Source of the DNA: a bacterium
GTDB lineage: Archaea > Thermoproteota > Nitrososphaeria > Nitrososphaerales > Gagatemarchaeaceae
Direction: 5' to 3'
Length of the DNA stretch: 63,423 bases
NCBI GenBank assembly: GCA_027310575.1
Contig: DAIDAO010000011.1
Location: 1-63,423, forward strand
Made by a program: the position numbers and the translations under genes. Below, in pieces: positions 30,377 to 30,544 of the stretch. The notes under the pieces are model-generated. The model had not been told where the DNA came from and made no database searches. It saw only the letters and a list, made by a program, of their open reading frames with translations. Position 1 is the first letter of the stretch; each line of letters begins with the position of its first letter.

Positions 30377-30441
30377 GGCTTGTGGGGGTTGGACGCCGGG
30401 ACTGGGATTTGAACCCAGAACCCGCTTTCGCGAGACAGGCT

Positions 30442-30458
30442 CGCCGGACAGACGCGAT
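30442..30458 (-). other. tRNA-Ser intron 2 (position 37/38)
   Basis: A 17-nt intron after the anticodon loop. The bulge-helix-bulge is canonical: CTGG (positions 32-35) pairs with intron CCGG, the 5' bulge is AA^A and the 3' bulge is CG^A, followed by stem GCCTG. Confidence 0.9.
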
Positions 30459-30466
30459 TTCCAGGC

Positions 30467-30482
30467 TTGCGCAGCTTGTGCT
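30467..30482 (-). other. tRNA-Ser intron 1 (position 29/30)
   Basis: A 16-nt intron within the anticodon stem. Central helix GCGC/GCGC, 5' bulge AG^A, 3' bulge AA^G and outer helix AGG/CCT form a complete bulge-helix-bulge. Shifting either cut by one base destroys the anticodon stem. Confidence 0.88.
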
Positions 30483-30534
30483 CTGCGCCCTACCAGATTA
30501 GGCGATCCCGGCGTTCGCGAGCCCGTAACAGGCG

Positions 30535-30544
30535 GCTTAAAACC
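30535..30544 (-). promoter_or_regulatory. TATA box for tRNA-Ser
   Basis: GGTTTTAAGC on the minus strand is centred 27 nt upstream of the tRNA 5' end. Confidence 0.6.

Follow-up and report, generated by a model that had tools for sequence, protein, structure and literature searches.

The window, by which we mean the whole stretch of DNA analysed (63,423 nucleotides), carries on its minus strand a tRNA-Ser(GGA) gene of 119 nt, running from position 30512 to position 30394. The Rfam tRNA model matches this interval end to end (30394–30512, minus strand; score 37.7 bits, gathering threshold 29), at the same coordinates where the first-pass annotation had placed a tRNA-Ser(GGA). All elements described here lie on the minus strand; their order, read 5' to 3', is exon 1, AGCACAAGCTGCGCAA, exon 2 (GCCTGGAA), ATCGCGTCTGTCCGGCG and exon 3. 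Exon 1 (30 nt; 30483–30512) falls within the Rfam match, supplies the acceptor 5' strand and D arm (positions 1–29), and does not differ between relatives that have the intron following it and those that lack it. That intron, 16 nt long (AGCACAAGCTGCGCAA; 30467–30482), interrupts the tRNA at the non-canonical position 29/30. Exon 2 (positions 30–37, GCCUGGAA; 30459–30466) displays the anticodon GGA in its sequence and is constant in the relatives that were found by it, and a second intron of 17 nt (ATCGCGTCTGTCCGGCG; 30442–30458) occupies the canonical position 37/38. Exon 3 (48 nt; 30394–30441), assigned from the Rfam match and the type II fold, contains position 38, the anticodon 3' strand, a variable arm with GAAA loop, the T arm, the acceptor 3' strand and G73. 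A box A-like element, TTTTAA (30537–30542), 25–30 nt upstream of the gene, is the putative promoter, and AGGTTTTAA is conserved at about the same upstream place in 14 related loci.

When both inserts are taken out, the resulting 86-nt RNA has G73 and a minimum-energy fold identical to the type II cloverleaf, its variable arm being capped by GAAA, so that the cloverleaf, long variable arm, anticodon GGA and G73 of a tRNA-Ser(GGA) are all present. G73 and the type II arm agree with the predicted charging with serine. We assign a probability of roughly 95% to the reading that 30394–30512 is a functional tRNA-Ser(GGA) gene with two short introns, whose expression and splicing we infer from its sequence and from that of its relatives. 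The gene is a well-supported further example of an already known type, from an uncultured Nitrososphaerota archaeon.

Such a gene is easily missed. An Rfam scan of the whole window did not report it, while the same model does find it when given a short stretch or when the genome is searched; ARAGORN run without introns found no tRNA-Ser(GGA) gene in the window, and with introns allowed it called a tRNA-Arg, which we reject as a misreading of the tRNA-Ser(GGA) gene. Annotators should be warned that intron-blind tools overlook or misname intron-bearing tRNAs of this kind.

Related loci in Nitrososphaerota metagenome genomes were retrieved with the neighbouring cbf5 as protein query, and in many relatives the same tRNA gene directly follows cbf5. 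Of the family's 46 genomes, 28, the window included, yielded the gene in whole-genome pattern searches; removal of duplicates gave 28 distinct genes. The first pattern used for relatives carried GGGTCGCC where the window gene has GGATCGCC, and it was widened for the family searches only. Exon sequences around both junctions match across relatives, a constancy partly built into patterns that demanded the exon sequences flanking both junctions, whereas the inserts, which were left free, differ in sequence and length. The 29/30 insert measures 12, 15–17, 22 or 24 nt and occurs as 21 distinct sequences; it is absent from six of the 28 distinct genes, natural alleles in which the exons are continuous as CAGGCCTGGAA. 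The 37/38 insert is present in all 28 (26 distinct sequences, 12–25 nt). The sizes and boundaries originally proposed for both introns are right, and this comparison is the best proof of the two-intron gene.

The pairing that each insert makes with its exon is also conserved. Nineteen of the 21 distinct 29/30 introns retain the central helix, compared with a mean of 0.24 and a maximum of 4 in 5000 shuffles, as do 19 of the 26 distinct 37/38 introns, compared with a shuffle mean of 0.98 and maximum of 9, figures that do not amount to strict probabilities given the shared descent of the inserts. Shifting the register by 1 to 3 leaves only 0 to 2 introns with a helix. On this comparative evidence the motif pairing is far above chance. 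That the locus is instead a decaying pseudogene, its inserts random damage, is very improbable: two insertions within one tRNA gene, and one overlooked by intron-blind tools, might be taken that way, but the exons are conserved in relatives, every stem is intact, the insert helices and the promoter element are conserved, and a pattern search of the window's genome found no other gene of this tRNA-Ser(GGA) pattern.

At both introns the exon and the intron end form four of four pairs, at a distance of 2 nt from either cut, and the GCGC/GCGC and CTGG/CCGG helices reported initially are indeed present. At 29/30, exon GCGC (tRNA positions 24–27; 30485–30488) pairs with intron GCGC (30469–30472), the 3' splice site lies inside a clean 3-nt bulge (AA^G), and A21–G23 may form an outer helix with C31–U33. 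On the 5' side, pairing of A28 and G29 with U and C of the intron can produce a 6-bp helix with an 8-nt loop; the lowest-energy fold, which contains this helix, reaches -10.9 kcal/mol, 3 kcal/mol better than the -7.9 of the strict bulge-helix-bulge. This additional pairing is possible in eight of the 21 distinct 29/30 introns and impossible in the other 13, and because those 13 disallow it we take the 4-bp helix to be the conserved element. At 37/38, exon CUGG (30461–30464) pairs with intron CCGG (30444–30447) and the 3' bulge is again clean; a proper inner helix is absent. The two junctions had been described as textbook bulge-helix-bulge structures with 3-nt bulges; the bulge is intact at each 3' splice site, but the minimum-energy fold puts both 5' splice sites in or beside a hairpin loop. 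Judged from these folding models, both motifs would best be filed as bulge-helix-loop, that is, the relaxed form, and relaxed motifs with one bulge also count among archaeal bulge-helix-bulge tRNA introns (PMC4090602).

The stable hairpin into which the 29/30 insert can fold raises the alternative that splicing removes just one of the inserts, the second being retained in the tRNA as an extended arm; yet either insert, if left in place, breaks the anticodon arm and six distinct genes lack the 29/30 insert altogether, and we give this reading very little credence. Less probable still is the removal of a single 33-nt intron at 29/30 leaving the anticodon GGC, a parse that ranks slightly higher in a crude scoring script penalising each extra intron but whose product would lack U33 and, with its G73 and long variable arm, be an alanine tRNA, and which is at odds with the six distinct genes that lack the first insert and keep the second, exon GCCTGGAA lying between the two sites (as the search pattern demanded this exon, its constancy is in part a selection effect; the absence of the first insert alone is natural and is not).

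For the gene with two introns, we envisage that a precursor would be transcribed from the gene's own promoter, that an (alpha-beta)2 tRNA-splicing endonuclease would cut both introns at the bulge-helix-bulge-like motifs, and that an archaeal tRNA ligase would join the exons, yielding a mature tRNA-Ser(GGA) expected to read UCC and UCU codons. The 29/30 intron probably leaves first, ahead of the 37/38 intron, since its outer helix (A21–G23 with C31–U33) uses bases needed by the 37/38 motif, and since the full anticodon stem, which is the 37/38 outer helix, forms only once the 29/30 intron is gone; in folding, prior removal of the 29/30 intron does allow the anticodon stem to form. The authors of tRNAscan-SE 2.0 note such dependence on splicing order in general (PMC8450103).

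With its 5' splice site paired in the lowest-energy fold, splicing of the 29/30 intron would rely on an enzyme that tolerates relaxed motifs. A search of 14 other genomes of the genus found a pair of paralogous splicing endonuclease genes in 12 and a single gene in the remaining two. In the window's genome the first endonuclease gene is complete (184 aa) and the beta-subunit gene is a fragment cut by a contig end; its last residues agree with the beta-subunit C-terminus of a relative, and it is followed by the same next gene. Nearly the full length of the alpha chain can be aligned to the subunit in PDB 3p1z from Aeropyrum pernix (E = 5e-44), and the chain has the complete Tyr-His-Lys catalytic triad; the relative's second (beta) subunit is without the histidine. 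Across the specificity loop the alignment with A. pernix has no gap and places K39 on the loop lysine K44, and K41 on R46. This loop lysine has been linked to cleavage of relaxed motifs (PMC6379350), and the thaumarchaeotal enzyme is alpha2-beta2 (PMC4090602). The genus encodes a two-subunit (alpha-beta)2 endonuclease that carries the loop lysine associated with broad specificity, and the introns are very probably cut out by this host tRNA-splicing endonuclease.

The double-intron tRNA-Ser(GGA) is not very unusual. Position 29/30 is among the known non-canonical tRNA intron positions, archaeal tRNA introns range from 11 to 129 nt with most medians at 12–25 nt, and tRNAs with several introns have been described in archaea (PMC4090602); tRNAscan-SE 2.0 recorded 107 non-canonical introns for Thaumarchaeota, along with genes holding as many as three introns (PMC8450103). 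The same genome has a tRNA-Ser(GCU) with a 15-nt intron at 29/30 (ACAAGATAGGCGCAA; locus L137, G000:C3:35384-35484, minus strand), which shares the end GCGCAA with the 29/30 intron of the window tRNA-Ser(GGA); a tRNA-Cys call made there by ARAGORN was discarded in favour of the intron-bearing tRNA-Ser(GCU). Its tRNA-Pro(UGG) probably has another 29/30 intron. A custom intron parser, which gives only approximate positions for other tRNAs and prefers a single 33-nt intron for the window gene, suggests that, among the 25 best tRNA genes in this genome, the majority have one intron or more. Two further tRNAs of the genome, tRNA-Ala(GGC) (L139, G000:C3:1732-1836) and tRNA-Arg(UCU) (L140, G000:C34:389-495), seemingly have two introns each, partly non-canonical, at approximate positions. 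The first-pass annotation, partly supported overall, was thus right in kind and overstated the rarity: 29/30 introns are not as uncommon as it held, and 16–17 nt, which it placed near the size limit, is within the usual range, relatives having versions of 12 nt.

Further variation marks this tRNA among relatives. A T-loop intron at 59/60, 25–27 nt long with an inner hairpin, occurs in the same tRNA of the relatives L011, L012, L016, L021, L026, L031 and L079, and six of the seven distinct genes having it carry three introns each, the known maximum. In a distant relative (L071, L032) the acceptor 5' strand upstream of tRNA-Ser(GGA) is apparently split as GCCGG + 25 nt + GGTCGCC, which would put an intron near 5/6; a second GCCGGGG is found immediately upstream of the split strand. 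On the cbf5 tree, which is poorly resolved, at least three changes are needed for the 29/30 intron and at least four for the 59/60 intron, with gain and loss indistinguishable. In one relative (L151 1096-4143, G059:C3; the same genome as L013) a 3-kb insertion at the tRNA gene lies between 22-nt direct repeats of the tRNA 5' end (GCCGGGATCGCCTAATCTGGTA), with a 5' tRNA fragment on one side, a restored three-intron gene on the other and an AbiEii-like gene between; a broken reading frame beside the insertion looked like an integrase, for which Pfam gave no confirmation.

Because tRNA-Ser(GGA) and tRNA-Ser(GCU) share both the site and the GCGCAA end, and the intron comes and goes among relatives, we entertain, as a speculation that is more probably wrong than right, that the 29/30 intron of this lineage's serine tRNAs is a mobile or copied unit, perhaps pressed by integrating elements that target the gene's 5' half, and one that must leave before the 37/38 intron. 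Alone, the single gene is of little weight; the set of relatives is more useful, in that one tRNA locus with the same neighbour carries, in addition to its canonical intron, from zero to two non-canonical ones in several genomes, and so forms a natural series in which to study the gain, loss and splicing of archaeal tRNA introns.

Among known systems, the 107 non-canonical introns of Thaumarchaeota (PMC8450103) share with the window gene its phylum, kind of intron and motif, in a count of genomes that may or may not include this lineage. The multi-intron tRNAs of Thermoproteales, for example tRNA-Pro(UGG) of Pyrobaculum islandicum, likewise combine canonical and non-canonical introns in one tRNA, and likewise have short introns, relaxed motifs and a two-subunit endonuclease, but belong to another phylum and have their introns at positions 25/26 and 56/57 (PMC4090602). 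Finally, although the insertion considered here sits in a relative, outside the window, and its integrase is unconfirmed, the arrangement in the L151 relative resembles the tRNA-Thr(GGU) locus of Caldiarchaeum subterraneum, where a restored intron-bearing gene stands beside a 5' tRNA fragment left by a mobile element (PMC3293823).
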